Source: Clostridia bacterium (lineage in GTDB: Bacteria; Bacillota; Clostridia; Christensenellales; Aristaeellaceae). Taken from it: 44,154 nucleotides of DNA. The stretch is from the NCBI GenBank assembly GCA_017469025.1, contig JAFUHD010000368.1, positions 1-44,154 of the forward strand, in the 5' to 3' direction. The translations under genes were made by a program, and so were the position numbers. Shown piece after piece: positions 1,286 through 33,305 of this stretch. Positions within the stretch are counted from its first letter, which is position 1. Each line of letters opens with the position of its first letter. The notes under the pieces are model-generated. The model was not told the DNA's origin. It made no database searches and worked only from the letters and a program-made list of their open reading frames with translations.

Positions 1286-2284
1286 TCAGGTAGTCTGATG
1301 ATCTGCAACAGGTCTGTAAACATATTCAGCGACTGCAACAAGATCCAGCCCGTTCAGTTCTGGCGTGACTACGGACAGGGAATACATGATTCCGGCATCT
1401 GGATCATACCAGAGACAAAGCTCAACCCAGTCGTGTTTATCTGCCTGTGCCTGAGCTATGGTTCCGGAGCAGCTGCCGACAGCGACTGCTTCTTCGTTTT
1501 CCCAGACATAATAAATGTCAGAGATGTTCAAGAGCTCCCGGGGTTTCAGGGAAGCGGGCTGCATACGTGCGCAGAATTCATCGCTGTCCAGTGTAAACCG
1601 CATTTCTGCGAGCTGTTCATCTTCAAGATACCGGTAGCTGATGTTTTCTGCATCTTCCGGCACACCGAAGGATAATCCGGTCTTTTCACTTAACTGCTCA
1701 GCCGTCAGATGAAGCCATGGATCCACGTACCCTGGATATGCAAGGAAACCACTGTCATTTGCGATGCTGGTGAGAAACCAGGTTTCCAGTTCACTTGGCG
1801 GATTTTCGAGATCCTGGACGTGTGTCCAAAGCCGCAAATCTTCCGGTAGATCAAGAATCGGCATACCTGGTGCATACAGGACCATTTCATCTCCCTGAGT
1901 GAGCCCGTACGGAACTGCAGTTACAAACCGGGTACCGTCACTGAACGATTCTATGCCGGTTTTCTCGTCGAGCAACAGCTCATCAACATGGATTCTGAAG
2001 ACGCGCTCACTGATCTGCTCAATAACAGACAGATGTCCGGTGAAGCTGTTGACGTATATGGTGCCGTACGGATATTCATCTGCAGCTTCGCCCATCTCTC
2101 CGTCGTGAAACAGACCGGTGAAAGAGCCGTCTTCCCGGATCGTCATATCAGTCGACCAGGCACTTGCGCCGCTGCAGTAACTCCATTCCAGATTCCTGAA
2201 TTCTGCAAAAATGGATTCTCCGCCAGCACTGAATATGGGGAGTGTCAGTATAAGAACCGCAAATACAAAGATAAGCTTTTTCAA
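1286..2284 (-). CDS. Secreted protein of unknown function, 332 aa
   Basis: The start is a TTG at 2284 preceded by a GGCGG ribosome site. The N-terminus KKLIFVFAVLILTLPIFSA is a clear signal peptide, so the product is exported; no lipobox was seen. Residues about 28-140 look like a small beta-rich domain (EWSYCSG, DGSFTGLFHDGEMG) of the lipocalin-like type seen in Clostridial secreted proteins; the remainder is acidic and rich in Trp and Tyr. No enzyme motif is visible. It lies downstream of another secreted-protein gene on the same strand, separated by a hairpin. Function unknown. Confidence 0.75.
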   Translation of the reverse strand: MKKLIFVFAVLILTLPIFSAGGESIFAEFRNLEWSYCSGASAWSTDMTIREDGSFTGLFHDGEMGEAADEYPYGTIYVNSFTGHLSVIEQISERVFRIHVDELLLDEKTGIESFSDGTRFVTAVPYGLTQGDEMVLYAPGMPILDLPEDLRLWTHVQDLENPPSELETWFLTSIANDSGFLAYPGYVDPWLHLTAEQLSEKTGLSFGVPEDAENISYRYLEDEQLAEMRFTLDSDEFCARMQPASLKPRELLNISDIYYVWENEEAVAVGSCSGTIAQAQADKHDWVELCLWYDPDAGIMYSLSVVTPELNGLDLVAVAEYVYRPVADHQTT

Positions 2285-2316
2285 TGAATACCGCCTTTCG
2301 CTTGGAACAAGTAGAA

Positions 2317-2349
2317 CAGCAGCGGTGTTTTCCGAAGAAACCGCTGCTG
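2317..2349 (-). terminator. Hairpin between two secreted-protein genes
   Basis: Perfect ten-base arms CAGCAGCGGT and ACCGCTGCTG are followed on the minus strand by TTCTACTT. It probably terminates the 2413-3036 gene, although the U-tract is weak. Confidence 0.55.
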
Positions 2350-2412
2350 CTGAAGTGTCACGGAAATCATTCAGATTTGGCTTTGGATGACTGCTGAAAG
2401 TACAGTCCTGGA

Positions 2413-3036
2413 TTATTGCGCAGGAGAATAGAAACGCCAGATCAGCATAGGCTGATAGTCATTATAGAGAATACGCACGTTAAAAACGGAAAAGCTGGGG
2501 CCATTGCCGCTTTCAAGCAGTGCCAGCAGTTCGTCGCCATTCCGGACTGCAACGTTATCCAGAATATCACCGGTTTCAGCATCCACCCAGTCGAGCATGA
2601 CCATATAGGGCAGGACTTCCTGTTCAAGACTACCAAGCTTAACCTGCGGAACCATGTCGTCTTCCATGATGCGCTCGAATGTGCCTTTGGTAGTATCACA
2701 GAACAGGACTTCATCCTCAGTGTTCCGGTTGAAATACAGATCCGGTCCGTCCCATTCAATGCTTTTTACCGGGAGCTCTTCACCATCTGACAGGATGATG
2801 TCACCTATGTTCACGCTTCTTATGGCATCCGCATCAAACTGCTCGTTTTCATAAAGCGTAAGCGTCATCATGTTGTTGCCCTTGTACTCGATATTGGTTG
2901 TTATGAAGCGGTCATTCAGATTGCTGAGATCAATCTGGGGCTGCAGAGGTGTGATGACTTCGCCGGCTGCTGTACCAAATACGGCCAGCATCAGAATCAT
3001 GACGAAAAGCAGTGTTGTGATGGTCTTTCTTTTCAT
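2413..3036 (-). CDS. Secreted protein of unknown function, 207 aa
   Basis: A longer open frame reaches 3150, but the ATG at 3036 has GGAGG eight bases upstream and is followed directly by a signal peptide (MKRKTITTLLFVMILMLAVF, cleavage near AAG-EV). The mature part is about 180 residues, acidic, and predicted beta-rich from alternating hydrophobics. No recognisable domain or catalytic motif was found. The gene is divergent from the LytTR two-component operon, across a 692-bp intergenic region. Function unknown. Confidence 0.7.
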   Translation of the reverse strand: MKRKTITTLLFVMILMLAVFGTAAGEVITPLQPQIDLSNLNDRFITTNIEYKGNNMMTLTLYENEQFDADAIRSVNIGDIILSDGEELPVKSIEWDGPDLYFNRNTEDEVLFCDTTKGTFERIMEDDMVPQVKLGSLEQEVLPYMVMLDWVDAETGDILDNVAVRNGDELLALLESGNGPSFSVFNVRILYNDYQPMLIWRFYSPAQ

Positions 3037-3590
3037 GGTATTTTCCTCCATATATGTTTGAATTTCAGGTATGACAAGTGAATTCCGGTGTAGTCCGGCC
3101 AGATACGCTGGCACAAGTAGCTCGGGTTTTGGTTCCTGTGATTCTGTCAATCAGCAGCAGACACTGAATCTTCCCTTTGCCTCAGGAGAAAGAGAATCCC
3201 TGAATGATGAGGTTCTTTTTTAAAATACGAAGTCAAAAGACAGGTGGCAGTTTTTGGAAGGTTCAGGATACAACTGTGGATGTAAAGCCCAGGGACCAGA
3301 GTCTCCCTGCAGGGATTAATTCATTTTTGCGGGGCAAGATATGACGGAATGTTTTATGCATGCAGTGGCATAACCGGCCGGATGCTGCCCGGATGACTGA
3401 GTTGCTGAATCTTTCGCAGAAACAGAGTGAATCATCTGAATGCCAATATTGTAATTGAGCATGGGAAACTATGCAAGCATGGACTTTTGTCTGTGTGATT
3501 GCAGCAGCACTTTTTTATTATACACCGGATGGATGAACTTAAAATCAGAAAATCTGAGCACAAAACGATGATTCACGACAAAATAATCCA
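3037..3590. other. Long intergenic region without a convincing gene
   Basis: About 550 bp separate the minus-strand secreted-protein gene from the regulatory repeats of the two-component operon. I saw no supported reading frame, no agrB/agrD-like genes and no strong terminator. A short signal-peptide gene too small to notice cannot be excluded, and the region could carry the ligand gene for the neighbouring kinase. Confidence 0.4.
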
Positions 3591-3591
3591 A

Positions 3592-3655
3592 TTACGATAA
3601 AAACGGGGACAATTACGATGTACGCCTTGAAAAAAGAAACGTATATTTATATTAT
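3592..3655 (+). promoter_or_regulatory. LytTR-type direct-repeat promoter of the two-component operon
   Basis: Repeats TTACGATAA (3592-3600) and TTACGATGT (3613-3621) start exactly 21 bp apart, two helical turns on one DNA face. Five bases later comes a -35 box TTGAAA (3627-3632), then 17 bp, then -10 TATTAT (3650-3655). LytTR domains are known to bind tandem 9-bp repeats with 12-13 bp between them. The first gene downstream encodes such a regulator, so autoregulation is inferred. Confidence 0.7.
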
Positions 3656-3728
3656 ATTTTCAAAGATGAGGCCGGCATGACAAGAGAGGTACCGGTGATA
3701 CAAATTATGACCTGAGGAGAAGTTCAGA

Positions 3729-4442
3729 ATGCTGAATATTATCATTCTGGAAGACCAGGCGGAGCAGGCAGAACGGCTTTCTCAGATGCTGAAAAAATAC
3801 GGGGAAGCCCACAAAGATTTTTCTTACAATTTGAAGCTGTACAACCGCTCCATTCCATTTTTGACGGAATACAGGTGTGATGCAGATCTACTGTTTCTGG
3901 ATATTCAGATTCCGGATATGCTGGGCATGGAAGCGGCCAGACGGATCCGGCAGATGGATAACAGGGTGATGATAATTTTTATCACAATGCTTACCCAGTA
4001 TGCAATTGAAGGGTATTCTGTCGGTGCATTTGACTATGTGCTCAAACCAGTACGATTTGAGGAATTTTCAGTCAAGATGGACAGGGTCTGCCGGATGCTG
4101 TCACATCAGAATATCTCCATGAGTCTTGATGTGCGCAATAAAGAGGAAAACAGACGTATCAACGTGGATGAAATAACATTTATTGAAGTATCCAATCATG
4201 ATATCCTTATCCATACGGACAGTGAAATTATTCGACAATGGGGAAACCTGAAGAGCTATGAGGAAAAGCTGTCCTCAGTTCATTTTGTGCGATGCAGTGC
4301 ATCGTTTCTGGTGAATCTGAAGTATGTGCGGGCAGTAAATGGAAGCACAGTGATAGTACATGGACATGAACTGTCTGTCAGCAATGGCAGACGCAAGGAA
4401 TTCCTGTCGGCTCTGGCAAAGTATAAGGGAGGAAGCAGGTAA
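3729..4442 (+). CDS. LytTR-family response regulator (AgrA/LytR-like)
   Basis: The protein has 237 residues. Residues 1-120 form a receiver domain: acidic pair E8-D9, phospho-acceptor D58 in LLFLDIQIPD, T86, and K106 in DYVLKP. Residues about 135-233 form a LytTR DNA-binding domain (INVDEITFIEVSNHDILIH, FVRCSASFLVNLKYV). The start is ATG 3729 after a GAGGAGAAG ribosome site. It overlaps the histidine kinase gene by one base (TAATG), so the two are translationally coupled. The class binds 21-bp-phased direct repeats; matching repeats occur before this gene and before three downstream transcription units. It probably activates the secreted-protein genes to the right. The signal is unknown. Confidence 0.93.
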   Translation: MLNIIILEDQAEQAERLSQMLKKYGEAHKDFSYNLKLYNRSIPFLTEYRCDADLLFLDIQIPDMLGMEAARRIRQMDNRVMIIFITMLTQYAIEGYSVGAFDYVLKPVRFEEFSVKMDRVCRMLSHQNISMSLDVRNKEENRRINVDEITFIEVSNHDILIHTDSEIIRQWGNLKSYEEKLSSVHFVRCSASFLVNLKYVRAVNGSTVIVHGHELSVSNGRRKEFLSALAKYKGGSR

Positions 4443-5749
4443 TGAGCTATATGCCGGTCTGGTATCAGCAGGGGCGCAGTGCTTTTCTGCTGCTGCAGTC
4501 GGTAGTCGGTCTGCTGCTGGTTTCATATCCCATGAAACGCAGGCAGCATTTCCTGCCACGATTGATTCTTTCTGTACTTGCAGGCTGTGCTGTACAGTAT
4601 CTGTTCAGGAATATTTATGTCGTTGGCAGCAGTCCTCTGGCTATGATGTCACATGCAGCAGCAGCCCTGCTTGTTTATATCACGCTGAACGTTATCGTGT
4701 GGTTTTGCTATGATGAAAGCATTTGGACCATACTTTTTATGGCGGCAACCGGTTATATTGCCCAGGATATTGCGGGCAGTGTTAAAACCCTGTTCCGGCA
4801 GATAGAATGGATAGACAGTTTTTCACGGCGGGCAGAGGGCGTGCTGGTTGTTGATCTGATCTGCTATGGAATGGTGTATGTGCTGCTGTTTTTTGCACTT
4901 CGGCCTTTTATCAGAAACAGAGAAGATAATTATGACAACAAGCTGAAAGCCATTTTTTCTGTAATTGTTCTGCTGTTGTGTATCGGTATGGCACGTCTTA
5001 CGCAGGATAACCCGGGAAGAAATCAGATGGCTGTAATCGCTGAAGCACTGTTACAGATAGTCATTGATGTACTGGTGATCGCACTGCAGTTCGGCGTAAT
5101 GGAACAGGCGAGACTTGCCAGCAATATGGAAACCATGCGTGAACTGATTCATACACAGCGGGTACAGTATGAGGCAAGCAAGGAAAGCGCACAGCTGATC
5201 AATGAAAAGTACCACGACTTAAAACACCTGCTGAAATCCTTCAGGGGAACGGTACCTCAGGAACAGCTTGACAAACTCAAACAGTCTATCGCGGCATATG
5301 AGCGTCCGGCCAATTCAGGCAATGAGGTGCTTGATGTACTTCTGGCGGAAAAAATCGGTATCTGTCAGCAGCGGGGGATAGTGCTTACGTGCTCTCTTGG
5401 AATGACAGACTTTTCATTTGTAGAAGAACTTGATCTGTATTCCCTGTTCCAGAACGCGCTGACGAATGCGATTAATGCTGTATCGGCCCTGCCCGAAGGT
5501 ACGGAACGATTCATTTCCCTGTCTTCCACACGTGACGGAAACATGCTGAATATTCATATGGAAAATCCCAGTGAAGAAGATATTTCTTTTGTCAACGGCC
5601 TGCCTAAGACCAAAGGTGATCCTGACTGGCATGGATTTGGTATGAAGAGCATGAACCGTATAGCGGAAAAATATAACGGCATGCTGACCGCTGAACAGCA
5701 TGGGAAAATGTTTTTTCTGGATATTCTGCTCCTGGCACCGGATAAATAA
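4442..5749 (+). CDS. AgrC-like sensor histidine kinase with GHKL ATPase domain
   Basis: The protein has 435 residues. Roughly the first 220 contain six or seven membrane segments and no large extracellular domain, the AgrC plan. A coiled segment leads to the phospho-acceptor motif YHDLKHLLKSF (H258). The C-terminus is a GHKL ATPase: N box LFQNALTNAINAV and G box WHGFGMKSMNRIAEKYNG. The gene starts one base inside the regulator stop codon. AgrC-family kinases normally sense peptide ligands made by agrB/agrD; neither gene is visible here. A rho-independent terminator follows 26 bp after the stop. Confidence 0.92.
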   Translation: MSYMPVWYQQGRSAFLLLQSVVGLLLVSYPMKRRQHFLPRLILSVLAGCAVQYLFRNIYVVGSSPLAMMSHAAAALLVYITLNVIVWFCYDESIWTILFMAATGYIAQDIAGSVKTLFRQIEWIDSFSRRAEGVLVVDLICYGMVYVLLFFALRPFIRNREDNYDNKLKAIFSVIVLLLCIGMARLTQDNPGRNQMAVIAEALLQIVIDVLVIALQFGVMEQARLASNMETMRELIHTQRVQYEASKESAQLINEKYHDLKHLLKSFRGTVPQEQLDKLKQSIAAYERPANSGNEVLDVLLAEKIGICQQRGIVLTCSLGMTDFSFVEELDLYSLFQNALTNAINAVSALPEGTERFISLSSTRDGNMLNIHMENPSEEDISFVNGLPKTKGDPDWHGFGMKSMNRIAEKYNGMLTAEQHGKMFFLDILLLAPDK

Positions 5750-5813
5750 TTACGATGCCGGAAGAACCAATCTCGCGGTTCGCCTTGTGGCGGACCGCTT
5801 TTTTTTATACGAT
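5750..5813 (+). promoter_or_regulatory. Degenerate LytTR-type repeat promoter before a secreted-protein gene
   Basis: TTACGATGC (5750-5758) has a weak partner TCTCGCGGT (5771-5779) exactly 21 bp on. Five bases further is TTGTGG (5785-5790), then 17 bp, then TACGAT (5808-5813). The spacing is identical to that before the two-component operon. The second repeat matches only 5 of 9 positions and overlaps a terminator stem, so this is the weakest member of the set. Confidence 0.4.
5775..5806 (+). terminator. Terminator of the two-component operon
   Basis: The arms GCGGTTCGCC and GGCGGACCGC with loop TTGT are followed by T8. This is a textbook intrinsic terminator directly after the kinase gene. 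Confidence 0.9.
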
Positions 5814-5851
5814 CGCAACGTCCAATATGATACGTGGGGGAGGAATATTCT

Positions 5852-6574
5852 TTGAAGAAAACATGGTTACTGCTTTTTGCTTTGCTTTGCATGGGAATGT
5901 GCGTTGCCCAGGCGGATAATACGGATTCCGTATATGATGTGCTGAATGGCCTCATCAATGGAAGAACATTTACACTGACCGTGAATGCAGAATCCGACGC
6001 AGACAAAGCTGCTGAACTCATTTCCAGATACGGCAGTGTTACCTGTACGCTTTGTCAGGAGAAAGATGAAATCCTGCTGGCAATTGTTTGTGATGGTGAT
6101 GCATATCTGAACGCAGCTGCCACAAAAGACGGAATCGGATTTGAAACCAGTCTGCTGGGAAACGGTTCTTTCCATAGCTCTTGGGATGCGCTTGAACCGG
6201 TGATTCTTGAGGAGAACGGCACAGTCAGTATCACGATGACGGGTCCTGACCATGAACTGATCCGGTTTACCTGCAAAGTGTCTGGGACAGATCCTGATGA
6301 CTGTCAGGCAGAAATTGATATCGGTTATATTACCGGTCCTGGAAACGTGCACAGCCTGTGGGACGGAATTACGAATAAAAGCAGTGAAACCAGCCGGGAA
6401 TTCTATTTTACCTTCAGTGAGGAAGAATACGGTATGGAGTGCGAAGGCACATCCACTGTGGAAATTGACGAAGATGGCAGCATGATCATTACCCGGGAGG
6501 AAACCGGCACGCTTACCTATCAGGAGGATGACCTGGGCGAAATCACGTTCCATTCCAGATTGACCATCCACTGA
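5852..6574 (+). CDS. Secreted protein of unknown function, 240 aa
   Basis: The TTG start at 5852 is chosen because GGGGGAGG lies about ten bases upstream and a signal peptide follows at once (KKTWLLLFALLCMGMCVAQA). A GTG at 5834 is in frame but overlaps the ribosome site. The mature protein is acidic, beta-rich and Thr/Ser-rich, without a known domain. It sits between the two-component operon and the first esterase, and its upstream region has the same repeat geometry, so co-regulation is proposed. The first repeat of the next promoter begins four bases after its stop codon. Function unknown. Confidence 0.75.
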   Translation: MKKTWLLLFALLCMGMCVAQADNTDSVYDVLNGLINGRTFTLTVNAESDADKAAELISRYGSVTCTLCQEKDEILLAIVCDGDAYLNAAATKDGIGFETSLLGNGSFHSSWDALEPVILEENGTVSITMTGPDHELIRFTCKVSGTDPDDCQAEIDIGYITGPGNVHSLWDGITNKSSETSREFYFTFSEEEYGMECEGTSTVEIDEDGSMIITREETGTLTYQEDDLGEITFHSRLTIH

Positions 6575-6577
6575 TTT

Positions 6578-6641
6578 TTGCGATGTGAAAAAGCGCAGTT
6601 ATGCTGTTTGCCCTGAAGGGGATACTCCGGCATGTAAAAAT
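6578..6641 (+). promoter_or_regulatory. LytTR-type repeat promoter of the esterase pair
   Basis: TTGCGATGT (6578-6586) and TTATGCTGT (6599-6607) start 21 bp apart. After 5 bp comes CTGAAG (6613-6618), 17 bp, then AAAAAT (6636-6641). The repeats match TTACGATGT at 8/9 and 7/9 positions. The -35 and -10 boxes are poor, as expected for a promoter that needs an activator. Confidence 0.55.
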
Positions 6642-6679
6642 GACATACAAAAGCTCATGTGAAAAAGAAGGAGGATTCC

Positions 6680-7618
6680 ATGATAAACAAGATTATCTGC
6701 CTGGTTATGGTTATAACCCTGGCGCTTTGTGCCCTGATTCCAGCTGTGGCTGAAGAGCGTGCAGAAGACCGAAAGGAAACTGTCACCGAGCTGGAAGGCG
6801 GCAATGAATCTCATTTCCGCAACTACGCGACCAGGTTCTGGGAGGCAGCGTGCGATCACCCGGGGGCCATTGAAAAGCTGGAATACACCACTTCTGTGTA
6901 TGGCGACACAGTAAACCAGTGGGCCAATGTGTACGTGCCCTACGGCTACGATGAGACCAGGCAGTACAACATCATCTACTTCTTTCACGGCACCAATGAA
7001 ACCCAGGACAGCTTCATCGGTGATGAAACAGTGAAGAATGCCATTGACAACATGATCGACATGGGTATCTGCGAGCCCTTTCTCATGGTGTGCCCTACCT
7101 ATTATTATAACTATGACGAGCGTGCCACCAACCACGCCGTATTTGTGGATGAGGTCCGCAAGGATCTGATGCCTGCCGTTGAAACCAGGTATTCCACCTA
7201 TGCCAAAACCGCTGACGAGGCGGGCTTTATTGCCTCCCGCGCTCATCGCGCCTTCTCCGGCTACAGCCAGGGAAGCTCCGTCTGCTGGCAGGTGACCTAC
7301 CGCTGCATGGACTACGCAAGGTATTTTGTGCCCATGTCCGCTTCCAGCATGGACAACTTCGCACCGCTCAAGAAGGCCATGAAGAACAGTGAATATGCCA
7401 ACGATGTGTTTTTCTACATCTGCTCTGGCGGCAAGCGTGACATTGCCTATGATGGCGTGGTGGAACTGATCAACGCCATGATTGCGGACGATGCCTTCTC
7501 CTATGGCACTGACCCCGCAGTGAATAACTGTTATGCAGCGATCTCCAAGGAAATCCACCAGACGCTCAAGGGCCGCTTCAACCTGTACAATGCATTTCAG
7601 GATGTGCTGTTCAAGTAA
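6680..7618 (+). CDS. Secreted CE1-like esterase (esterase D / feruloyl esterase fold)
   Basis: The protein has 312 residues from ATG 6680, with AAGGAGG just upstream and a signal peptide (MINKIICLVMVITLALCALI). The alpha/beta-hydrolase core shows NVYVPYGYDE, the oxyanion strand YFFHGTNETQDSF, the nucleophile elbow G-Y-S-Q-G with S196, GGKRD near the acid, and a late histidine in KEIHQTLKGRF. This is the pfam00756 pattern of acetylxylan and feruloyl esterases, so it probably removes acyl or feruloyl groups from plant xylan outside the cell. No binding module is attached. It lies 20 bp before a paralog and forms an operon with it under a LytTR-type promoter. Confidence 0.88.
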   Translation: MINKIICLVMVITLALCALIPAVAEERAEDRKETVTELEGGNESHFRNYATRFWEAACDHPGAIEKLEYTTSVYGDTVNQWANVYVPYGYDETRQYNIIYFFHGTNETQDSFIGDETVKNAIDNMIDMGICEPFLMVCPTYYYNYDERATNHAVFVDEVRKDLMPAVETRYSTYAKTADEAGFIASRAHRAFSGYSQGSSVCWQVTYRCMDYARYFVPMSASSMDNFAPLKKAMKNSEYANDVFFYICSGGKRDIAYDGVVELINAMIADDAFSYGTDPAVNNCYAAISKEIHQTLKGRFNLYNAFQDVLFK

Positions 7619-7638
7619 TTAATGGGGGAAACAGACGA

Positions 7639-8574
7639 ATGCAAAAGATAATGATCCTGTCTCTGCTGTTATTGCTTCTGTGCGGTGCGGGCGGGATATA
7701 TGCTGAGGAAGCGGGTTTTCAGGCGCCTGCCCTGCTGGATGCAGGTAATCTGGCAGGCGTGCCCACCCACTATCTGCTTTATGACCGGGATTTTTACGAA
7801 GCGCCGTGCGATCAGCCAGGCACCGTGGTCAAGATGAAATACAACACCAATGTGTACGCCGAAAAAACGTACAAAAAAACGATGTATGTGTATCTGCCCT
7901 ATGGATATGACGAAAATGGAACGGATCGCTATCCCGTGATCTATTTCTTTCATGGCCGGGGCTGCGATCCGACCACGCTCCTTTGCAACCCGGCAACCAA
8001 GAACGCCTTTGACCACATGATTTCCACCGGTGTTGCGAGGCCTTTCATTCTGGTAGCGCCAACCTATTACTACGATGCCCGTCATCTGCTGTATGACTGG
8101 GAGCAGTTTCCACGGGAAATGCGGGAGGAAATAATGCCTCTGGTGGAAAGCACCTACCGCACCCATGCCGAAACAGCGGACGAATCCGGTTTCCGCGCAT
8201 CCCGGGACTACCGGGCGATCAGTGGTTTTTCGATGGGCAGCATGACAACGTGGGCACTGTTTGACAATATGCTGGATGTAAGCACCAATTTTCTGCCGTT
8301 CTCCGGTCCCATGCAGGACACAGAAGCTGTTCTTTCCATCGTTCAAGAAACAGAGTACCCCTTTTACATCTATATGGCCTGCGGTGGTGAGGAGGATCTG
8401 GCCTTTGAAAACTGCAATGCACTGGCAAGGACACTGGCAGCTGATGCCCATTTCAGCTATGGTCCGGACCGTGAGAAAAACAATTTCTTCTACTGTCTGT
8501 CCGACAACATCCATCAGGATCTGACCAGCCGATATTATCTCTATAACGCGTTCCAGGACGGATTATTCCAATAA
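7639..8574 (+). CDS. Secreted CE1-like esterase, paralog of the preceding gene
   Basis: The protein has 311 residues, with a signal peptide MQKIMILSLLLLLLCGAGG and the same fold: MYVYLPYGYDENG, VIYFFHGRGCDP, elbow G-F-S-M-G with S198, CGGEEDLAF, and histidine in DNIHQDLTSRYYLYNAF. It is clearly homologous to the gene 20 bp upstream and to the esterase at 12520, but diverged in the loop after the oxyanion motif (RGCDPTTLLC in place of TNETQDSF), which suggests a different substrate. A GGGGGAAA ribosome site lies in the short spacer. Likely secreted and active on plant cell-wall esters; exact substrate unknown. Confidence 0.87.
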   Translation: MQKIMILSLLLLLLCGAGGIYAEEAGFQAPALLDAGNLAGVPTHYLLYDRDFYEAPCDQPGTVVKMKYNTNVYAEKTYKKTMYVYLPYGYDENGTDRYPVIYFFHGRGCDPTTLLCNPATKNAFDHMISTGVARPFILVAPTYYYDARHLLYDWEQFPREMREEIMPLVESTYRTHAETADESGFRASRDYRAISGFSMGSMTTWALFDNMLDVSTNFLPFSGPMQDTEAVLSIVQETEYPFYIYMACGGEEDLAFENCNALARTLAADAHFSYGPDREKNNFFYCLSDNIHQDLTSRYYLYNAFQDGLFQ

Positions 8575-8580
8575 ACTGAG

Positions 8581-8644
8581 TTACGATGTAAGAACCATCA
8601 GTTACGATGTATGCGTTGTAAGACGGGTTTCAAACTGATACATT
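8581..8644 (+). promoter_or_regulatory. LytTR-type repeat promoter, two perfect copies
   Basis: Two identical TTACGATGT repeats at 8581-8589 and 8602-8610 start 21 bp apart. Five bases on is TTGTAA (8616-8621), then 17 bp, then TACATT (8639-8644). This is the cleanest copy of the arrangement seen before the two-component operon. Confidence 0.7.
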
Positions 8645-8699
8645 ATGCCCGTAACAAAGACCTGCTGAGACGGGTCGAATTAAGAAGGAGGATTTTCCT

Positions 8700-9305
8700 A
8701 TGAAAAAGTATCTGATTCTTCTGGTTGCCATGATCATGGCCATGTCCATTGTGACAGTTGCTACTGCTGAAATCAAGAGCAGCTACAACCTGAGCGACAA
8801 CAATTTCATCGATGCGGTTGGCTGGTATGCGACCAAAGACGCTTCTCTGATCCTTCGCGATGATTCCCATTATGAACTGTTCTATCGTGAGTATTACTTT
8901 GGTACCACCGATCCCGGCCTCAAAGCCAATAAGCTGATCGTCTATCGCGGCACTTATTCTTCTACTGAGTCTGCTGATGATGAGGCCTGTCATTTTGACA
9001 TTACCCTGAATACCTGTGAGGGCATCTACTTTGAGCAGCATGGCAAAGGCTATGGCCGCACTCCGCTGGGATTCGCCATGGTTCTGGATACCGACAACTG
9101 GACCGATGAAATGACGGATATTGCTTTCCCGGATGGTTCTGACAACGGTGCTGCCGACTTCCTCGCACATCACACCCTGGAAGGCAAGATGTTCACTGTT
9201 GAAGATCTGCGGGAGGATCTGGATGACGTTACCCTGCAGAACATGATCGTGACCCTGCCTGAAGGCATGGAAAGCGTTGAAGCCCTCACCATTACCGAAG
9301 GCTGA
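8700..9305 (+). CDS. Secreted protein of unknown function, 201 aa
   Basis: ATG 8700 follows an AAGAAGGAGG ribosome site. Residues 1-23 are a signal peptide (MKKYLILLVAMIMAMSI, ending ATA-EIK). The mature part, about 178 residues, is acidic with two cysteines (near CHFDITLNTCEG) that could form a disulfide. No domain is recognised. Its promoter carries the two perfect TTACGATGT repeats, so it should be the strongest target of the neighbouring response regulator; its function may explain what the system is for. A strong terminator follows. Confidence 0.78.
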   Translation: MKKYLILLVAMIMAMSIVTVATAEIKSSYNLSDNNFIDAVGWYATKDASLILRDDSHYELFYREYYFGTTDPGLKANKLIVYRGTYSSTESADDEACHFDITLNTCEGIYFEQHGKGYGRTPLGFAMVLDTDNWTDEMTDIAFPDGSDNGAADFLAHHTLEGKMFTVEDLREDLDDVTLQNMIVTLPEGMESVEALTITEG

Positions 9306-9333
9306 TCCAACTGAATATCTGACTTGAAGTCAT

Positions 9334-9364
9334 GGCCGCCGTGCGAATAGTGCGGCGGCCTTTT
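9334..9364 (+). terminator. Rho-independent terminator
   Basis: The arms GGCCGCCGTGC and GTGCGGCGGCC are followed by TTTT. It separates the putative LytTR regulon from the GH3 gene. Confidence 0.85.
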
Positions 9365-9430
9365 CTGATTGACAAAGGAAGCTTACGATCTGGTTTCGTA
9401 TCTGCATTTTATTGACGAAGGAGCGTTACT

Positions 9431-12400
9431 ATGGCCAAAAATAAAAAGCCCAAAGGGAAGCTGATCTGGAAAATCCTTTGCGGTGTATTTGCCTTCCTTT
9501 TCGCGTTTCTGATGATCGGTGGACCAATTGCCAACAATTACGCCACCATCATTAATATGGTACTGGGCATTGAGGGCAGTACTGTTGTGGGAGACGCAGC
9601 GGAAGATCTGCCGCCCCGTTTTGTATCTGATTATGAAGACAGTGCATCTCAGGCTGCTGCTGCCGATCTGGTATGTGAAAGTGTTGTTGCGAATGGTTCT
9701 GTACTGCTGCTGAACCGGAACAATGCACTGCCGCTTTCCGGGGGTGAAAAGATCAGTCTGCTGGGAACCACTTCCGTTCATTTTGTATATGGTGGTACAG
9801 GTTCCGGTGGAATGGATACCTCCAAGGCGCAGACTTTAAAGGACGCTCTTGAGCAGGATGGGTTCACTGTCAATCCCATGCTGTGGAAATTTTATGGAGA
9901 GGGTGCCGGTAAGGATTACGGTCTTAAGAGCGCAGCCGGAAGTCTGAACAACTATATTTTCAAAAATGAAGAATTTGCGGTAAATGAAGCACCTCTGAGT
10001 GCATTTTCCAGTGCTGAATGGGATTCCGTTTCCGAGTACGGTGATGCAGCCATTATGGTTATCGGCCGTGTATGCGGTGAAGGAAAGGATCTGCCGGTTA
10101 TCGGCGCGTCTGATGCAAATGGAAACATGCTCTCCATCAGCAAGGAAGAAAAGGATATCCTGGGCAAGCTGGCTGAGCTGAAAGCAGCTGGTTCTCTCAA
10201 GAAAATCATCCTGCTTCTGAATACTGCAAATGCGGTTGAACTTGACGTAATTGATCCTGCTGTTTGCGGCGTGGATTACGGTATTGATGCCTGCCTGTGG
10301 GTTGGCGAGGTAGGACAGAGCGGCATCCGTGCCATCGGTGATCTGCTGAATGGAAAGATTAATCCATCCGGACGACTGGTAGATACATACTGTTATGACA
10401 ATACCACATCGCCTGCCGTTCAAAATGCTTATGTAACTTCTTATACCAATGCCTCTGACAAAGGTCTGGCCTTTGAAAAGACGAACAATGAGTATTATGT
10501 TGTTTATCAGGAAGGCATCTATATTGGATATCGTTATTACGAAACCCGGTATGAAGATATGGTGCTGGGCAATGCCAATGTAGGCGATTACGACTATGCC
10601 GCAACAGTTGCGTTTCCTTTTGGCTACGGCCTGAATTACAGCAGCCTTTCCTACGGCAAGCTGAATATGAAGGAAAACGGGAATAACTTTGACTTTACCG
10701 TGGATGTCACCAATCCGTCTGAGCGGGATGCCCGTGATGCGGTTCTTATCTATATGCAGAGTCCTTATACCGATTATGACAGACAGAACGGAATCGAAAA
10801 GGCAGCAGTAGAACTGGTGGGTTACACCAAGATTGATGTACCTGCGGGCAAAACCGTTACCGCAAATGTATCTGTGGCCAAGTCGGAAATGCGGACATAT
10901 GACGCCAATGGCGCCAAAACCTACATTGTGGATGAAGGCAACTATTACTTCGCGACAGGAAATGGCGCACACGAAGCCCTGAATAATATCCTGATGCAGA
11001 AGGCTGCACAGAAAGATACCCTGAACGGTACAGTGGATACCGCGAAAATGGTGGGCGAAGGCAGGGCGGATCTTGCGGTTGTCTACAAGCAGACAAAGCA
11101 GGACGACACGACTTATGCAACCAGCCGCACCGGTTTCGCCATTACCAACCAGCTGGATCATGGTGATCTGAACAAATTCGATACCGATACATCCAATGAT
11201 GTGAAATATCTGACCCGTTCTGACTGGGCGGCAACCATGCCCAAAGCGGATCTGAGCAGCGGCACTTACAAAGCTGCCGTGCAGATGGCTGCCAATGATG
11301 AACTGGTAAAAGCGCTGAATACCATTATCGATTCTGAAAAGAAGGGGACAATGCCGACCATGGACAAGGAAGGCGAGCTTACGCTGGCTCACTTCATCGG
11401 TGTGCCTCTGGATGGCTCCATCACCCTTCAAAATGGTCAGATATACACCTGGGATGATCTGATGGACCAGGTGAAGTTTAATGAAATGAGCAAGCTTATC
11501 GGCCAGACATATCATGCAACTGCTGCTGTCAAGTCTGTCGGCAAGCCTGCCACCAAGGATGAAAATGGTCCGCAGGGCATTACTGCAACACTGACCGGCG
11601 GCTCATCTTCTACCAGCTATACCTCTGAAGATGTCATGGCTGCATCCTTTGATACTGCCATTGCCGAAGCTGTAGGCCGTTCCATGGGCAATGACTGTCT
11701 TATGGCGAACCGGAAGGCATATTCCGGTATCTATGGTCCTGGAGCAAATATTCACCGTACACCGTATTCCGGCCGTAACTTTGAATATTATTCTGAGGAT
11801 CCGTTCATTTCCGGCAAAACCTGCGCAGCTGAAACTGCCGGCATTCAGAGCAAGGGTGTGTATGTATACAACAAGCACTTCTGCTTCAACGACCAGGAGA
11901 CAGGCCGTGACGGCATCTGCGTGTGGACAAATGAACAGGCTGCCCGTGAGATCTATCTCCAGGCATTTGAATATCCTATTGCAGACGCCAATGCCTACTG
12001 TGTCATGACGTCCTTTAACCGTCTTGGTGCAACCTGGGCAGGCGGTGACTATAACCTGATTACTAATATTTTGCGTGGTGAATTCGGTATGCCCGGCTTT
12101 GCGCTGACCGATTTCTCCAATAACAATGCGTTCATGGACGTAATTCAGGGCCTGCTGGCCGGCGGCGACGGCTGGGACTGCAATGATGCTTCCAAGTGGA
12201 CGGATAAACTCAAGACCTACTCGGATGATCCGCAGGTCGTGAGCGCAATGCGTGAGGCAACCAAGCATATTCTCTATACAGTGGCCAATTCAAATGCAAT
12301 GAACGGCATGGGATTCAATACCATTGTGGAAGAAGTACATGGCTGGTGGCAGGATGCCATCACCTATGGCCAGATTGGCACCGGTGTGCTGGCGGCTCTG

Positions 12401-12454
12401 TTCCTGGGTTTGAGCATTTTCAGCAGCCGCAAAGCCAGAAAGAAAGCGGCATAA
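9431..12454 (+). CDS. Circularly permuted GH3 beta-glucosidase with membrane anchors at both ends
   Basis: The protein has 1007 residues. After a basic N-terminus there is a membrane segment (about 14-35, KILCGVFAFLFAFLMIGG). The GH3 C-terminal domain comes first (about 75-340: ESVVANGSVLLLN, GGTGSGGMD), then a fibronectin-III-like domain (about 395-510). The GH3 TIM barrel follows at about 640-950 (GPGANIHRTPYSGRNFEYYS, NKHFCFNDQE) with the nucleophile D894 in FALTDFSNN. This permuted order is known in some rumen Butyrivibrio and Ruminococcus enzymes. A second membrane segment ends the protein (about 979-996), followed by RKARKKAA. It probably hydrolyses beta-linked oligosaccharides at the cell surface. 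The esterase 65 bp downstream has no intervening terminator. Confidence 0.9.
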   Translation: MAKNKKPKGKLIWKILCGVFAFLFAFLMIGGPIANNYATIINMVLGIEGSTVVGDAAEDLPPRFVSDYEDSASQAAAADLVCESVVANGSVLLLNRNNALPLSGGEKISLLGTTSVHFVYGGTGSGGMDTSKAQTLKDALEQDGFTVNPMLWKFYGEGAGKDYGLKSAAGSLNNYIFKNEEFAVNEAPLSAFSSAEWDSVSEYGDAAIMVIGRVCGEGKDLPVIGASDANGNMLSISKEEKDILGKLAELKAAGSLKKIILLLNTANAVELDVIDPAVCGVDYGIDACLWVGEVGQSGIRAIGDLLNGKINPSGRLVDTYCYDNTTSPAVQNAYVTSYTNASDKGLAFEKTNNEYYVVYQEGIYIGYRYYETRYEDMVLGNANVGDYDYAATVAFPFGYGLNYSSLSYGKLNMKENGNNFDFTVDVTNPSERDARDAVLIYMQSPYTDYDRQNGIEKAAVELVGYTKIDVPAGKTVTANVSVAKSEMRTYDANGAKTYIVDEGNYYFATGNGAHEALNNILMQKAAQKDTLNGTVDTAKMVGEGRADLAVVYKQTKQDDTTYATSRTGFAITNQLDHGDLNKFDTDTSNDVKYLTRSDWAATMPKADLSSGTYKAAVQMAANDELVKALNTIIDSEKKGTMPTMDKEGELTLAHFIGVPLDGSITLQNGQIYTWDDLMDQVKFNEMSKLIGQTYHATAAVKSVGKPATKDENGPQGITATLTGGSSSTSYTSEDVMAASFDTAIAEAVGRSMGNDCLMANRKAYSGIYGPGANIHRTPYSGRNFEYYSEDPFISGKTCAAETAGIQSKGVYVYNKHFCFNDQETGRDGICVWTNEQAAREIYLQAFEYPIADANAYCVMTSFNRLGATWAGGDYNLITNILRGEFGMPGFALTDFSNNNAFMDVIQGLLAGGDGWDCNDASKWTDKLKTYSDDPQVVSAMREATKHILYTVANSNAMNGMGFNTIVEEVHGWWQDAITYGQIGTGVLAALFLGLSIFSSRKARKKAA

Positions 12455-12494
12455 CCATTTTTGATAAACGATCTGTTTTTGAAACAAGGATGAG

Positions 12495-12506
12495 TTGACC
12501 CGTCAA
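12495..12506. repeat. Short palindrome before the third esterase
   Basis: The perfect inverted repeat TTGAC-CC-GTCAA lies directly before the AGGAGG ribosome site at about 12509. It could be a small hairpin affecting translation or a protein site. Confidence 0.3.
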
Positions 12507-12519
12507 CAGGAGGTTAAAG

Positions 12520-13506
12520 ATGAAGAGAATTACAGCGCTCTTGTGTGCTCTGATGCTGCTTATGTGCGCCTTTTCTGCTTTGGCAGACGGCCGTACTCCA
12601 CCGGAGGACAAAAAGGTTATTACAACAGATGATGTCATTGGGGCAGAGACCATATTTAAAAAATATGACAACAAGTTCTATGACGCCGAGTCCACACAGC
12701 CCGGCACCGTGGTGCGCCTGGATTACACCACCACTGCCTACGGTGCGGAGCAGCCTGGCTGGGTGAATGTATACCTTCCATATGGCTATGATGAAAACGG
12801 CACCGAACGGTACAACGTGATCTACTTCCTCCATGGCACCAATGAAACCCAGGACAGCTTCATCGGCGACGAAAAGGCCAAAAATGCCCTGGACAACATG
12901 ATTGAGGCGGGCATTACCGCGCCGTTCATTATGGTGTTCCCCACTTACTATTACGACTACGAAGCCCGTGCTATCGACATGAAAGCCTTCTCCACCCAGG
13001 AAATGCGCAATGACATTATGCCGGCTGTTGAAAGCACATATCGTACCTATGCAGAAACTACGGATGATGCCGGCTTCATCGCATCACGTGATCATCGTGC
13101 CTTCTCCGGTTTCTCACGCGGATGTTATGCGTGCTGGCATCAGCTGTTTAACAGCCTGGACCGCGCAAAATGGTATATGCCTTTTTCGGCCAATATCAGC
13201 AGTGCTGATGAAATGGGACTCGAAATGCCAGTGGAAGAGCAGATGCAGCTGCTTAAGGATGCACTCAATGCTCAGGCAGAATACAAGAATGACTTCTTCG
13301 TTTATGCAGCCTGCGGCGGCAAACGTGACATGATGTATGATGTAAATGCTGCCCTTATTTCTGCCATGGTGGCTGATACCGATGATTTCAGCTATGGCAC
13401 CAATCCTGCAGAAAACAACCTGTATTACAGCATCTCCGGAGAAATCCATCAGACGCTTATGAGCCGGTTCTATTTCTACAATGCTTTTGATGTAGTATTT
13501 AAGTAA
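12520..13506 (+). CDS. Secreted CE1-like esterase, third paralog
   Basis: The protein has 328 residues from ATG 12520 after an AGGAGG site, with signal peptide MKRITALLCALMLLMCAFSALA. The core motifs are NVYLPYGYDENGTERY, YFLHGTNETQDSFIGDE, elbow G-F-S-R-G with S199, CGGKRDMMYD, and GEIHQTLMSRFYFYNAF containing the probable catalytic histidine. The loop NETQDSFIGDE is shared with the 6680 esterase and not with the 7639 one, so the three form a small expanded family. It probably acts with the GH3 enzyme upstream on decorated plant oligosaccharides. A strong terminator lies 15 bp past the stop. Confidence 0.88.
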   Translation: MKRITALLCALMLLMCAFSALADGRTPPEDKKVITTDDVIGAETIFKKYDNKFYDAESTQPGTVVRLDYTTTAYGAEQPGWVNVYLPYGYDENGTERYNVIYFLHGTNETQDSFIGDEKAKNALDNMIEAGITAPFIMVFPTYYYDYEARAIDMKAFSTQEMRNDIMPAVESTYRTYAETTDDAGFIASRDHRAFSGFSRGCYACWHQLFNSLDRAKWYMPFSANISSADEMGLEMPVEEQMQLLKDALNAQAEYKNDFFVYAACGGKRDMMYDVNAALISAMVADTDDFSYGTNPAENNLYYSISGEIHQTLMSRFYFYNAFDVVFK

Positions 13507-13520
13507 ATTCAGGTCGTCCG

Positions 13521-13566
13521 TCGGGCTGAAGATCCGGTCAGGGCTGAGGATCTTCAGCCCGATTTT
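13521..13566 (+). terminator. Terminator of the GH3-esterase unit
   Basis: Perfect 15-base arms TCGGGCTGAAGATCC and GGATCTTCAGCCCGA are followed by TTTT. Confidence 0.9.
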
Positions 13567-13609
13567 CATTGTATTTCGGAACAGAATAACGATAATTAAA
13601 AATCTGCAA

Positions 13610-19980: not shown

Positions 19981-20043
19981 ATGTATAAAAGATGCCTCCC
20001 GCTTTGGGAGGCATGGAAGCATTATTTGTGCAGAATTTCATAG
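19981..20043 (+). CDS. Tiny open frame with an extremely strong ribosome site
   Basis: ATG 19981 starts a 20-residue frame (MYKRCLPLWEAWKHYLCRIS). It is preceded by AGAAAGGAGGTGA, a 13-base perfect complement of the 16S rRNA 3' end. The frame overlaps the terminator and the last bases of the minus-strand gene at 20022, so it may be only a stranded ribosome site left from a lost gene. No function is proposed. Confidence 0.2.
   Translation: MYKRCLPLWEAWKHYLCRIS
19986..20014 (-). terminator. Terminator of the minus-strand sugar operon
   Basis: The arms GATGCCTCCC and GGGAGGCAT, read on the minus strand, are followed by CTTTTAT. They sit just past the stop at 20022. Confidence 0.75.
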
Positions 20044-21656
20044 CTGACAAAAGCAATATGCCGGCTGTCTGCTGACCAGCTGTTCACATTTATTGATCCC
20101 TGACCGCCGAAGAAGGACAGGAGTTTGTGGTGACCGGTTCCGTCAGCGTTCATCATCCATAATTCTACACGCATATTGGGAAGGTGTTCGCCGGCTTCCA
20201 GGTCATTCTTTCCATAAGACAGGTAGACGACCCGATTTCCATCAGGAGATACATGAGCAAACCAGTTGTTCCGCTCATTGAAGGTCATCTGGGTCTGGCC
20301 GCTGCCGTCGCGGTTCATGCGCCAGATCTGCATAAGTCCGGTCCGGGTAGAATTGAACCAGATCTGCTTGCCGTCCGGTGAATATTCAGGCCCATCATTA
20401 AATCCGCCGCCTGTCAGCCGCTGTTCGTCGCCGCCCTGTACGGGAATGGTATAAATATCAACCTCCATTTTTCCGTTGTGTTCACGGAAAGCACAGTAGG
20501 CAAATTCCTGACCATCCGGAGACCATCCGTGTAGATAACTGGGGGCGTTTGGTGTTACCAGGCGCGGTGTGCCACCGCTCAGCGGCAGTACGTATACCTG
20601 TGAGAGCCATGGGGTTTCCTTTACGCTGTGGCTTACGGCAATCTCCTGCTCGTCCGGCGAGATGACATGATCATTGTTGCAGTTGTCGCAGGTACCGGTG
20701 TCAATACAGTTTTCAAGGCCGGATGCAATATCGTAAGTGAAAATATGGCCTTCAGAATTAAATATGATGGTGTTCTGACCTTTAAGCCAGTTGGGTGCTT
20801 CAATGACCCGGTCAAAGCGGCAAAGCGTATGGATTTCGCCAGTCTCGACATCCAGTGTGTTCAGATAGCTGACGGAGGGCAGCCGTTCCTGTGTACGGGA
20901 TTCAAGTGCCTTCAGGCTGACGGTCAGATCCGCTTCCGGATCCGGACCGAAATCATCCAGGTCCACCAGCTGTGGGATTCCCATGGCTCTTGCAAACTGG
21001 AAGCATGCAGTGACATCGAGACTGCCGCAGCCGATTGCCGCGGGGGATACAGAACCATTGTTTATGGCAAAATCCTTATAGTGCAGACTGCGGACCGTGG
21101 CTCCGAGACGCCAGAGCAGCTGCTCCGGATCCTGTCCGCCGGCAAGTGCCCAGCCTGCATCAACCTGAGCAAAAACCCTGCCAAGACAGAGAGACAGCAG
21201 ATGCTCATAGGCAGTCATCCCGCCGATGCGTGCGTCAATGTCAGCCTGTTCATTATGAATCAGAAGTTCTGCGCCGACGCTCTCCAGTTCATCTGCCAGC
21301 ATCATATAGGCCAGGGCTGTCTGGTGGAGGGATTTGTCGGTAAGGGATTCAGGACTTTTGACAACCAGCTGGCGAAGACCGCAGGAGGCGGCCAGGTCGG
21401 CCAGCTGTCTGCGGTGCTGAGCAGCATCATATCCGATGAGATGAGCGGATACAATATCAAATCCCAGCCCACGGATTTGAGACAGATGCTTTTCAAACCA
21501 TGAAGCCGGCCAGAAGACGTGATCATAGCCGGGAATGGTTTCGGGGGCAATGCAGGGTTCAATGCATTTGTAACCAAGTCTTCTTAGCTCTTCAAGCGCC
21601 TGAAGGGTGTCTTTCCGGTCCTTCAGAACCCCGTACAGGTTAATTCCGAATTTCAT
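20022..21656 (-). CDS. Fusion of a sugar isomerase/epimerase TIM barrel and a TolB-like beta-propeller
   Basis: The protein has 544 residues and no signal peptide. Residues 1 to about 270 are a xylose-isomerase-like TIM barrel (FGINLYGVLKDRKDTLQAL start, IVSAHLIGYD, ELLIHNEQ, VFAQVDAGWALAGG, LHYKDF). Residues about 285-544 contain repeated PD40/TolB-like blades: SPDEQEIAVSH, WSPDGQEFAY, YSPDGKQIWFNSTR, VSPDGNRVVYLSYG and WSADSRHIAFVSYE. Propellers of this type are usually periplasmic or oligogalacturonate-lyase-like, so a cytoplasmic fusion to an isomerase is unusual. AGGAGG precedes the ATG at 21656. It lies 18 bp downstream of the oxidoreductase and is probably in its operon. It likely handles a sugar released by the neighbouring glycosidases. 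Confidence 0.85.
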   Translation of the reverse strand: MKFGINLYGVLKDRKDTLQALEELRRLGYKCIEPCIAPETIPGYDHVFWPASWFEKHLSQIRGLGFDIVSAHLIGYDAAQHRRQLADLAASCGLRQLVVKSPESLTDKSLHQTALAYMMLADELESVGAELLIHNEQADIDARIGGMTAYEHLLSLCLGRVFAQVDAGWALAGGQDPEQLLWRLGATVRSLHYKDFAINNGSVSPAAIGCGSLDVTACFQFARAMGIPQLVDLDDFGPDPEADLTVSLKALESRTQERLPSVSYLNTLDVETGEIHTLCRFDRVIEAPNWLKGQNTIIFNSEGHIFTYDIASGLENCIDTGTCDNCNNDHVISPDEQEIAVSHSVKETPWLSQVYVLPLSGGTPRLVTPNAPSYLHGWSPDGQEFAYCAFREHNGKMEVDIYTIPVQGGDEQRLTGGGFNDGPEYSPDGKQIWFNSTRTGLMQIWRMNRDGSGQTQMTFNERNNWFAHVSPDGNRVVYLSYGKNDLEAGEHLPNMRVELWMMNADGTGHHKLLSFFGGQGSINVNSWSADSRHIAFVSYEILHK

Positions 21657-21674
21657 CGCATGTCCTCCTGCCTG

Positions 21675-22850: not shown

Positions 22851-23075
22851 TTTTCCTTCTCCTGAATTCGTGGTTCAATAGTTTGTTTGTATGATAATGG
22901 TACGAGTCCCTCATTATGAGTCTGCAATTTACCCATAGTACAAACGGTACCGCTGTTTCGCTGCTCAAAGCGAATCCAGCACCTGAAGTACATGTTCACT
23001 GCAAAGAAACATAGAAACCTCTGGCAAAAAGATGAAGGGGAATCACGAGTCGGGAAAACAGAATTCCCTGTCATT

Positions 23076-23104
23076 ATCTTAAATTAGTGCAGTCAGTTTG
23101 GCAA
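23076..23104 (-). promoter_or_regulatory. Promoter of the oxidoreductase-isomerase operon
   Basis: On the minus strand TTGCCA, 17 bp, TAAGAT. This gives a leader of about 220 bases before the start at 22850, in which I see no gene and no recognisable riboswitch. Confidence 0.55.
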
Positions 23105-23208
23105 GGGATTATTTCAAGTATATGACTTTGTCCGCCCTGAGATCAGCAGAACAGTACAATACAGGCATCTGTTTTTTAACGCTGTATGGGATGCTGATCT
23201 GTCGGAAA

Positions 23209-24474: not shown

Positions 24475-24635
24475 GGATGTGCCTCCACTGAATATGATGC
24501 GATAATTTTAACATTTTATGCTGACACCAGTAAATGGAAAATGTGCAGAAACATGTTGATTTACAGGCATTTCTTTCATCTTTCAAGTTATTTTGAAAGT
24601 TCCTGAATTTTTGTAATTTTACTGTACTTTTTGGC

Positions 24636-24664
24636 TTTACGGTCTGAAACGCCTTTTTTATACT
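24636..24664 (+). promoter_or_regulatory. Promoter of the glycan-utilization operon
   Basis: TTTACG, 17 bp, TATACT lies about 60 bp before the symporter start, in the divergent region shared with the AraC gene. The weak -35 fits activation by AraC. Confidence 0.5.
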
Positions 24665-29260: not shown

Positions 29261-29262
29261 GC

Positions 29263-33304: not shown

Positions 33305-33305
33305 C

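Follow-up and report, generated by a model that had tools for sequence, protein, structure and literature searches.

Promoters controlled by LytTR-family regulators elsewhere, of the AgrA, ComE and HdrR/BrsR type, carry a pair of 9-bp direct repeats, in most cases with 12 bp between them, that lies a few bases 5′ of the −35 element and most often 10 bp from it (PMC6193735). In 2010, LytTR regulators were described near GH3 enzymes with a C-terminal membrane helix at three loci of Butyrivibrio proteoclasticus B316, from the rumen (PMC2914790), and one Roseburia arabinoxylan locus lists a LytTR regulator together with a kinase (PMC5320581). Here we analyse a stretch of 44,154 nucleotides from a Clostridia bacterium (assembly GCA_017469025.1, contig JAFUHD010000368.1; referred to below as the window), in which a LytTR regulator and a GHKL-type kinase stand next to genes for esterases and for two proteins of no family, U1 and U2. 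We consider it probable that the locus is a self-contained LytTR/GHKL two-component regulon of the esterases, U1 and U2, with one operator, O2, nested in a terminator; regulator binding, activation, the signal and the substrate are the parts of this reading that we infer.

Ferulate and glucuronate ester bonds are thought to limit the digestion of plant fibre in the rumen, and to our knowledge little is known about how the enzymes that cut them are controlled in uncultured Clostridia. The operators and the gene set of the locus can be read from sequence and are open to testing by reporter. Many gut Clostridia have relatives of the module, and testing a single example would therefore point to what a large group of two-component systems may do.

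Repeat pairs, regulator and kinase

The features on which the argument rests are given here in the order of the window.

3592..3621, + strand: predicted LytTR operator O1, two direct half-sites 5′ of the regulator gene, with −35 TTGAAA at 3627-3632 and −10 TATTAT at 3650-3655 (from sequence)
3729..4442, + strand: response regulator with receiver and LytTR domains (PF00072, 59.3 bits; PF04397, 57.6 bits; both over Pfam cut-offs)
4442..5749, + strand: GHKL sensor histidine kinase (PF14501, 73.8 bits), with about six predicted membrane helices (hydropathy rule) and a YHDLKH motif
5750..5779, + strand: predicted LytTR operator O2, its second half-site extending into the 5′ arm of the kinase terminator (from sequence and orthologs)
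5775..5806, + strand: predicted intrinsic terminator, GCGGTTCGCC-TTGT-GGCGGACCGC-T8, −21.3 kcal/mol
5852..6574, + strand: U1, probably secreted protein of no family, with a signal-like N-terminus
6578..6607, + strand: predicted LytTR operator O3, 5′ of the esterase pair Est1-Est2 (from sequence and orthologs)
6680..7618, + strand: Est1, probably secreted CE1-like esterase (PF00756; GYSQG and IHQ motifs; XynY esterase 6fj4, E 2.3e-37; hydropathy)
7639..8574, + strand: Est2, probably secreted CE1-like esterase (PF00756; GFSMG and IHQ motifs; XynY esterase 6fj4, E 4.2e-38; hydropathy)
8581..8610, + strand: predicted LytTR operator O4, two perfect half-sites 5′ of U2 (from sequence and orthologs)
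8700..9305, + strand: U2, conserved and probably secreted protein of no family, 38-91% identical in 14 relatives, with a signal-like N-terminus

Read directly, the half-sites are TTACGATAA..TTACGATGT at 3592/3613 (O1), TTACGATGC..TCTCGCGGT at 5750/5771 (O2), TTGCGATGT..TTATGCTGT at 6578/6599 (O3) and TTACGATGT twice at 8581/8602 (O4). Their spacing is uniform, with 12 bp between the repeats, 5 bp to a −35-like hexamer and a further 17 bp to a −10-like hexamer. An earlier sequence-only reading of this DNA had reported four pairs at these positions and with this spacing, and both are borne out, with 5750 as the weaker fourth. It had also proposed one promoter architecture for four transcription units; the identical spacing stands, whereas the hexamers differ in quality, being good at O1 (TTGAAA/TATTAT), fair at O4 (TTGTAA/TACATT) and weak at both O2 (TTGTGG/TACGAT) and O3 (CTGAAG/AAAAAT).

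The pattern TTACGATGT-N12-TTACGATGT has three matches in the window at up to three mismatches, against 0.03 expected, and none of 100 shuffles reaches three. When spacings of 10-44 are compared at up to two mismatches per half, three pairs fall at a period of 21 and at most one at any other spacing. Throughout the genome of origin (4,252,068 bases in 373 contigs), the same pattern at up to three mismatches gives five matches, the three in the window and two elsewhere at three mismatches, and its reversed control gives eight. These single-genome counts, which do not exceed the control, are what would be expected if the repeats were chance or low-complexity matches, but that explanation is contradicted by the shuffle test, the spacing test and the conservation in orthologs described below, and we hold it to be extremely improbable. 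The scan likewise gives no excess of the kind that scattered copies at unrelated sites, named beforehand as evidence against a regulon, would produce. At up to two mismatches the pattern is matched only by 8581 and 3592, so that on genome-wide counts alone only these two stand out; support for O3 at 6578 comes from its position and from orthologs, not from the genome-wide count. The 5750 pair is too degenerate for this pattern. A conserved-class pattern for 5750 finds, at up to two mismatches, only 5750 and 8581 in the same genome (control 0), and places two of three matches on the ortholog contig in relative G021 (control 0) and one of three in relative G023 (control 1).

Receiver and LytTR domains over the Pfam cut-offs in one protein and a GHKL domain in the other confirm that the first two genes encode a regulator and kinase pair, as the sequence-only reading had it. 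In 12 aligned regulators, the window included and one relative with an internal stop dropped, D9, D58 and K106 are invariant, and the phosphorylation-site residues are conserved. AgrC is also a GHKL-type kinase with about six membrane helices, and agr quorum sensing likewise joins a LytTR regulator to such a kinase. This likeness would suit an agr-like system with an unrecognised peptide signal, in which the esterases would be density-controlled public goods. We regard that as improbable. AgrB has no match in the genome of origin (93.66% complete), a search of unproven sensitivity given that 14 control genomes yielded one match and none over cut-off, and the AgrA equivalog model scores 46.5 bits on the regulator against a cut-off of 400. 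By these tests, which did not extend to short peptide genes, an agr system is rejected, and the label ‘AgrAC-type’ that had been attached to the locus is dropped. The locus also differs from the LytTR Regulatory System (LRS), in which a LytTR regulator is paired with a membrane inhibitor in place of a histidine kinase; here the regulator has a receiver domain and its partner is a GHKL kinase.

Conserved candidate operators and the predicted terminator behind the kinase gene

A search of 60 genomes provided regulator orthologs at 83, 73 and 60% identity. The pattern TTACGATGT-N12-TTACGATGT has six matches in each of these three genomes, the relatives G021, G023 and G002 (controls 2, 0 and 2); three of those in G021 lie on the ortholog contig (0, 2 and 3 mismatches), and two of those in G023 lie on contigs with the regulator and U2 (1 and 2 mismatches). 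A larger locus set was made from the best 80 of at least 585 regulator relatives, found in a scan of named genomes with the alignment of 12 regulators. Its first 15 loci (L148-L162, regulator identity 60-88%) are treated as orthologs; their assemblies are labelled Clostridia, Clostridiales or Christensenella, except L158 (Ruminococcaceae), six carry the name of a site in the ruminant gut, and L149 is almost the same as L150.

Together with the window, these 16 loci (about 216 kb) contain 40 operator matches, in a scan that the CGCGGT half-site class joined only after ortholog sites had been seen. Thirty-seven of the matches are intergenic and directly 5′ of the regulator, U1, Est1, U2 or whichever gene comes first behind the kinase; two lie inside genes and one is in a shifted register. 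A site precedes U2 in all 12 loci that hold that stretch (window included, L074 being the twelfth), the regulator in 10 of 16 (the window and 9 of 15), and Est1 in the window, L149, L150, L153 and L159. In L151, L154, L157 and L161, Est1 comes after the kinase and its terminator element. Alignment of ortholog loci, a check proposed with the sequence-only reading, finds the repeats kept at the same places, and its counterpart, a regulator kept without repeats, is not what is seen: at least one site is present in 15 of 16 loci, and the sequence of the remaining one, L162, ends inside the regulator gene.

The fourth pair, at 5750, lies at the end of the kinase gene, and the sequence-only reading had given it without its overlap with the terminator. 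The second half-site of O2, TCTCGCGGT, runs into the 5′ arm of the hairpin, the −35 hexamer TTGTGG (5785-5790) begins in the terminator loop, the T-run lies in the spacer, and the −10 hexamer TACGAT (5808-5813) follows the T-run. Of 15 kinase 3′ ends, 12 show the same overlay (those of the window, L148-L154, L156, L157, L159 and L161); in these the terminator 5′ arm holds the second half-site, mostly as TTGCGCGGT or TTACGCGGT; the period in L148 is 22, and the window and L148 overlay sites fell under the threshold of the ortholog operator scan. Behind the element comes the gene for U1 or Est1, except in L156 and L159, where it is one for a CE15-like glucuronoyl esterase.

Alignment of 12 overlay sites, with L150 left out as near-identical to L149 and a second L159 site included, shows an invariant CGCGG and a nearly invariant first half-site; nine of the 12 sites have a −35 that opens with TTG, and 11 have a −10 of the form TA...T. 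The rest of the stem covaries, with five pairs altered on both sides and a score of 0.313 compared with 0.155 for shuffled sequences (0 of 500) and at most 0.102 when the structure is slid, a count in which the structure was derived from the same sequences.

These data bear on a rival account, in which the regulon is real at O1, O3 and O4 and 5750 is only a terminator, its likeness to an operator being a recombined or decaying remnant and U1 being transcribed from a separate promoter at 5804-5831. The degenerate second half-site TCTCGCGGT in the window and the 9-of-12 sigma-70-like pair downstream would fit this account. Against it, the half-sites, the −35 TTG and the −10 TA...T are kept while the remainder of the hairpin changes with compensation. 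Moreover, the overlay is missing just in L155, L158 and L074, the loci in which the kinase is followed, as the next gene that could be recognised, by U2 with an operator of its own (no terminator was found at the kinase 3′ end of L158), whereas L148 keeps it although only a 28-residue Est2 remnant separates the element from U2. Overlays with other half-sites, described in the next paragraph, also speak against a terminator alone. We regard this account as rather unlikely, and 5750 as a false fourth site or plain terminator was rejected on the ortholog comparison. We see about an even chance that terminator and activator-dependent promoter are under selection as a single composite element that closes the regulatory operon. 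Regulator and polymerase bound at such an element could also make termination of the regulator transcript more or less frequent, and the level of the regulator would then be coupled to output.

Similar arrangements occur in more distant relatives. In L163-L165 (regulators 49-52% identical; assemblies labelled Pseudoflavonifractor, Oscillospiraceae and Lachnospiraceae) the sequence at the end of the kinase gene is TTTTGATGY-N12-NTTTGCGGT, the second half of which falls within a terminator arm, and the U2 promoter of L164 has TTTTGATGT-N12-ATTTGATGT at the same spacing to −35 and −10. An overlay of this kind is also seen in L187, and in L118 and L119 at a period of 20 with a different half-site. 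Among 106 kinase ends, reduced to 97 distinct ones of which 54 have a terminator by the criterion used, 14 of the 97 have a 6-of-9 repeat at period 21 whose second copy falls within the 5′ arm, compared with 0-6 at other periods from 12 to 33; many of these 14 should be related by descent. With a 7-of-9 repeat the 97 ends show no excess at period 21 (1 of 97, with 2 at period 20 and up to 2 elsewhere); the reason is that the two types of half-site agree at no more than six of nine letters. That the composite element has been kept, or re-made with different half-sites, in several paralog groups of GH3-associated LytTR systems is a claim that we weigh jointly with the composite reading itself, and for the two together the balance is again close to equal. 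Two further sets of LytTR-like repeats with promoter spacing, at L163:4713 and L164:2857 (minus strand), are oriented away from the regulator; a CE1-like esterase gene on the minus strand of L163 starts about 1 kb beyond the 4713 repeats.

Probable output genes, distant relatives and a proposed mechanism

Downstream of U2, three further features complete the locus.

9334..9360, + strand: second predicted terminator, between U2 and GH3, without a LytTR repeat pair; a similar hairpin lies 5′ of GH3 in several orthologs
9431..12454, + strand: GH3 enzyme whose domain order is permuted, with a membrane helix at the N-terminus (PF01915, PF00933, PF14310; GRNFEY, KHF and TDF motifs)
12520..13506, + strand: Est3, probably secreted CE1-like esterase, the third at the locus (PF00756; XynY esterase 1gkk, E 2.3e-35)

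The best solved relative of Est1, Est2 and Est3 is the CE1 feruloyl esterase domain of XynY (PDB 1gkk and 6fj4, which we take to be the XynY esterase domain of Clostridium thermocellum). The esterases have the esterase-fold relative and the Ser and His motifs expected of CE1 feruloyl esterases. Unlike the XynY domain, they are separate proteins with signal-like N-termini of their own, and their feruloyl esterase activity is putative. U1 and the window U2 have no Pfam match over cut-off and no PDB match better than E 0.6 and E 0.5, respectively. Of the claim that the outputs are secreted, the esterases and two no-family proteins with signal-like N-termini behind the repeats remain, while its framing as ‘AgrAC-type’ does not. 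The placing of CE1 and CE15 families under the same type of operator points to hemicellulose ester bonds as the target, and suggests a regulon for those bonds that involve ferulate and lignin. The permuted domain order of the GH3 enzyme is known from rumen beta-glucosidases (PMC11233000). The terminator at 9334-9360, its loop included, is much alike in several orthologs (GGCCGCCGTGCGAA..GTGCGGCGGCC) and may set the ratio of U2 to GH3.

Association with GH3 extends well beyond the orthologs. A GH3 of the window type lies within the fetched flanks (up to 10 kb, the farthest at 6.5 kb) in 57 of 65 distant regulator loci (34-52% identity), and of the eight loci that lack it, six have a flank of no more than about 2 kb on one side or both. 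A GH3 (E 1e-60 or better) is within 10 kb of 6 of 75 LytTR domains in 24 of 29 genomes, a rate given for rough comparison that rests on a different threshold from the 57 of 65; five of the 24 genomes have such a GH3, and there 6 of 32 LytTR domains are nearby, on fragmented contigs. A simple hydropathy rule places membrane helices near both ends in 56 of 59 full-length GH3 proteins in the 80 loci, and near the N-terminus only in the window GH3. The gene order of the window, with the regulator close to a secreted, membrane-anchored GH3, is that of a GH3-associated LytTR module.

In the noncoding DNA of 63 distant loci (two near-copies of the 65 left out), repeat-plus-promoter combinations number 316 at period 21, compared with 51-128 at other periods from 14 to 30, overlapping registers counted. 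For scans upstream of genes, eight of the 65 loci were dropped as near-copies by eye, as were loci without a usable GH3 start or with less than 200 bp upstream, leaving 49 loci for GH3 and 55 for the regulator. A strict scan 5′ of GH3 finds sites in 8 of 49 loci at period 21, one at 22 and none at fifteen other periods from 14 to 30; a looser scan finds 10 of 49 with controls of at most 3, and most of the 49 have no such site by the criteria used. Upstream of the regulator the result at period 21 is weak, with 2 of 55 in the strict scan (controls up to 1) and 4 of 55 in the loose scan (control up to 3). A site 5′ of the regulator itself, which the first site had been proposed to drive, is present in 10 of 16 ortholog loci, the window among them, but is not general.

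We propose the following scheme. The membrane kinase would sense a signal and phosphorylate the regulator, which would bind direct half-site pairs (extended consensus CARTTACGATGT, 21-bp period) just 5′ of −35 elements, several of them weak. Bound regulator would activate its own operon in many orthologs, together with the secreted CE1-type esterases (CE15-type in two relatives), U1 and U2, and GH3 and Est3, downstream of U2, would join the output. Judged from the protein families, the esterases would probably strip ferulate and glucuronate off hemicellulose, after which GH3 would act at the cell surface. Behind the kinase gene the hairpin would end the regulator transcript, and the same DNA would serve as second half-site, −35 and spacer of an activator-dependent promoter, whose output transcript would begin directly behind the T-run and would require phosphorylated regulator. 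In this way the nested element would shield the outputs from basal transcription of the regulator and make them depend on its phosphorylated form.

Several observations weigh against such a regulon. The promoter hexamers are weak at 5750 and 6578, and a better sigma-70-like pair, that at 5804-5831, lies 5′ of U1. The regulator site is absent in L155, L156, L158, L159, L161 and L162, of which L155 has only 167 bp upstream. L152 has no site between U1 and Est1, which may form one operon there. The ortholog counts are not independent because the sites are related by descent. In G002 (regulator 60% identical) none of the six matches, at 2-3 mismatches and with a control of 2, lies on the regulator or GH3-Est3 contig, the stretches with the kinase and U2 not being covered. 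Two distant loci, L188 (10 kb on both sides) and the related L189 (6 and 10 kb), lack GH3. In the window, neither GH3 nor Est3 has its own operator-like pair (a repeat pair was sought upstream of Est3 and none was found, and the sole 21-bp repeat before GH3 sits in the U2 coding sequence), and a predicted terminator separates U2 from GH3; these two genes are therefore assigned to the regulon by gene order only.

Some of the same facts would fit a regulator that binds the repeats to repress or fine-tune, with carbon-source regulators mainly controlling the enzymes and the esterase output incidental to a shared neighbourhood: a strong −35 is missing at several promoters, and 6 of 16 loci lack the regulator site. 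The half-sites, however, end 5 bp 5′ of the −35, as in activated LytTR promoters (PMC6193735), and in some distant loci sites spaced in this way stand before GH3 genes. We give this alternative a low probability and retain activation as the preferred reading.

Other observations concern the surroundings of the locus and its relatives. The protein encoded at 1286-2284 (minus strand) is of no family and has a signal-like N-terminus; its 46% identical homologue at L118:8296-9294 adjoins another regulator-kinase-GH3 locus, and it may belong to the same kind of module. In relative G021, repeats CAGTTGCGGT with a 21-bp period lie at L048:2833-2969 between an esterase gene and a divergent GH3 gene, near a paralogous regulator-kinase pair. 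A regulator paralog at L112:10789-11487 (minus strand) has an in-frame stop codon and is perhaps a decayed copy or an assembly error. No Rfam family reaches its gathering score in 3000-13600. Reading of translations names a run of carbohydrate-metabolism genes at 20022-34592 (beta-galactosidase-, rhamnosidase-, GH43- and GH1-like genes and a sugar symporter), which the window pattern scan covered for LytTR sites, and an apparent mobile element at 40198-44090, at the right end of the contig, with one relaxase-like gene and another whose start is ORF6N/KilA-like.

Comparison with described systems

The regulator has the receiver and LytTR domains, and the sites the direct repeat pairs with a 21-bp period 5′ of a −35, that characterize the LytTR family. 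The extended half-site TCAGTTACG resembles what we take to be the LytTR consensus, and when the canonical motif sets the register, about 9 bp separate the window sites from the −35 that follows them. The shared geometry was considered as a novelty in itself and rejected, because it is the usual geometry of LytTR promoters (PMC6193735): two 9-bp direct repeats, mostly with 12 bp between them, 5′ of the −35. The window differs from those promoters in the sequence of its half-sites, in having one operator placed over an intrinsic terminator, and in an output of plant cell-wall esterases.

Among the papers listed from the open-access literature, titles and the starts of abstracts gave no report on these operators, on terminator-nested LytTR operators or on a LytTR esterase regulon. 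The account of B. proteoclasticus B316 deals with three cases in one genome and, in its accessible part, does not mention operators (PMC2914790), whereas the present study covers operators, esterases and many relatives. Gram-positive polysaccharide utilization loci (PMC5320581) resemble the locus in combining carbohydrate enzymes with a two-component regulator; unlike them, none of 10 scanned window proteins (1286-13506) is a transporter, and several of the outputs are esterases. The locus is probably a LytTR two-component regulon, not agr by the tests made, that stands apart from these systems in its unusual output and in the unusual placement of an operator, and the terminator-nested operator, if true, would be a compact regulatory design of interest outside the LytTR family.

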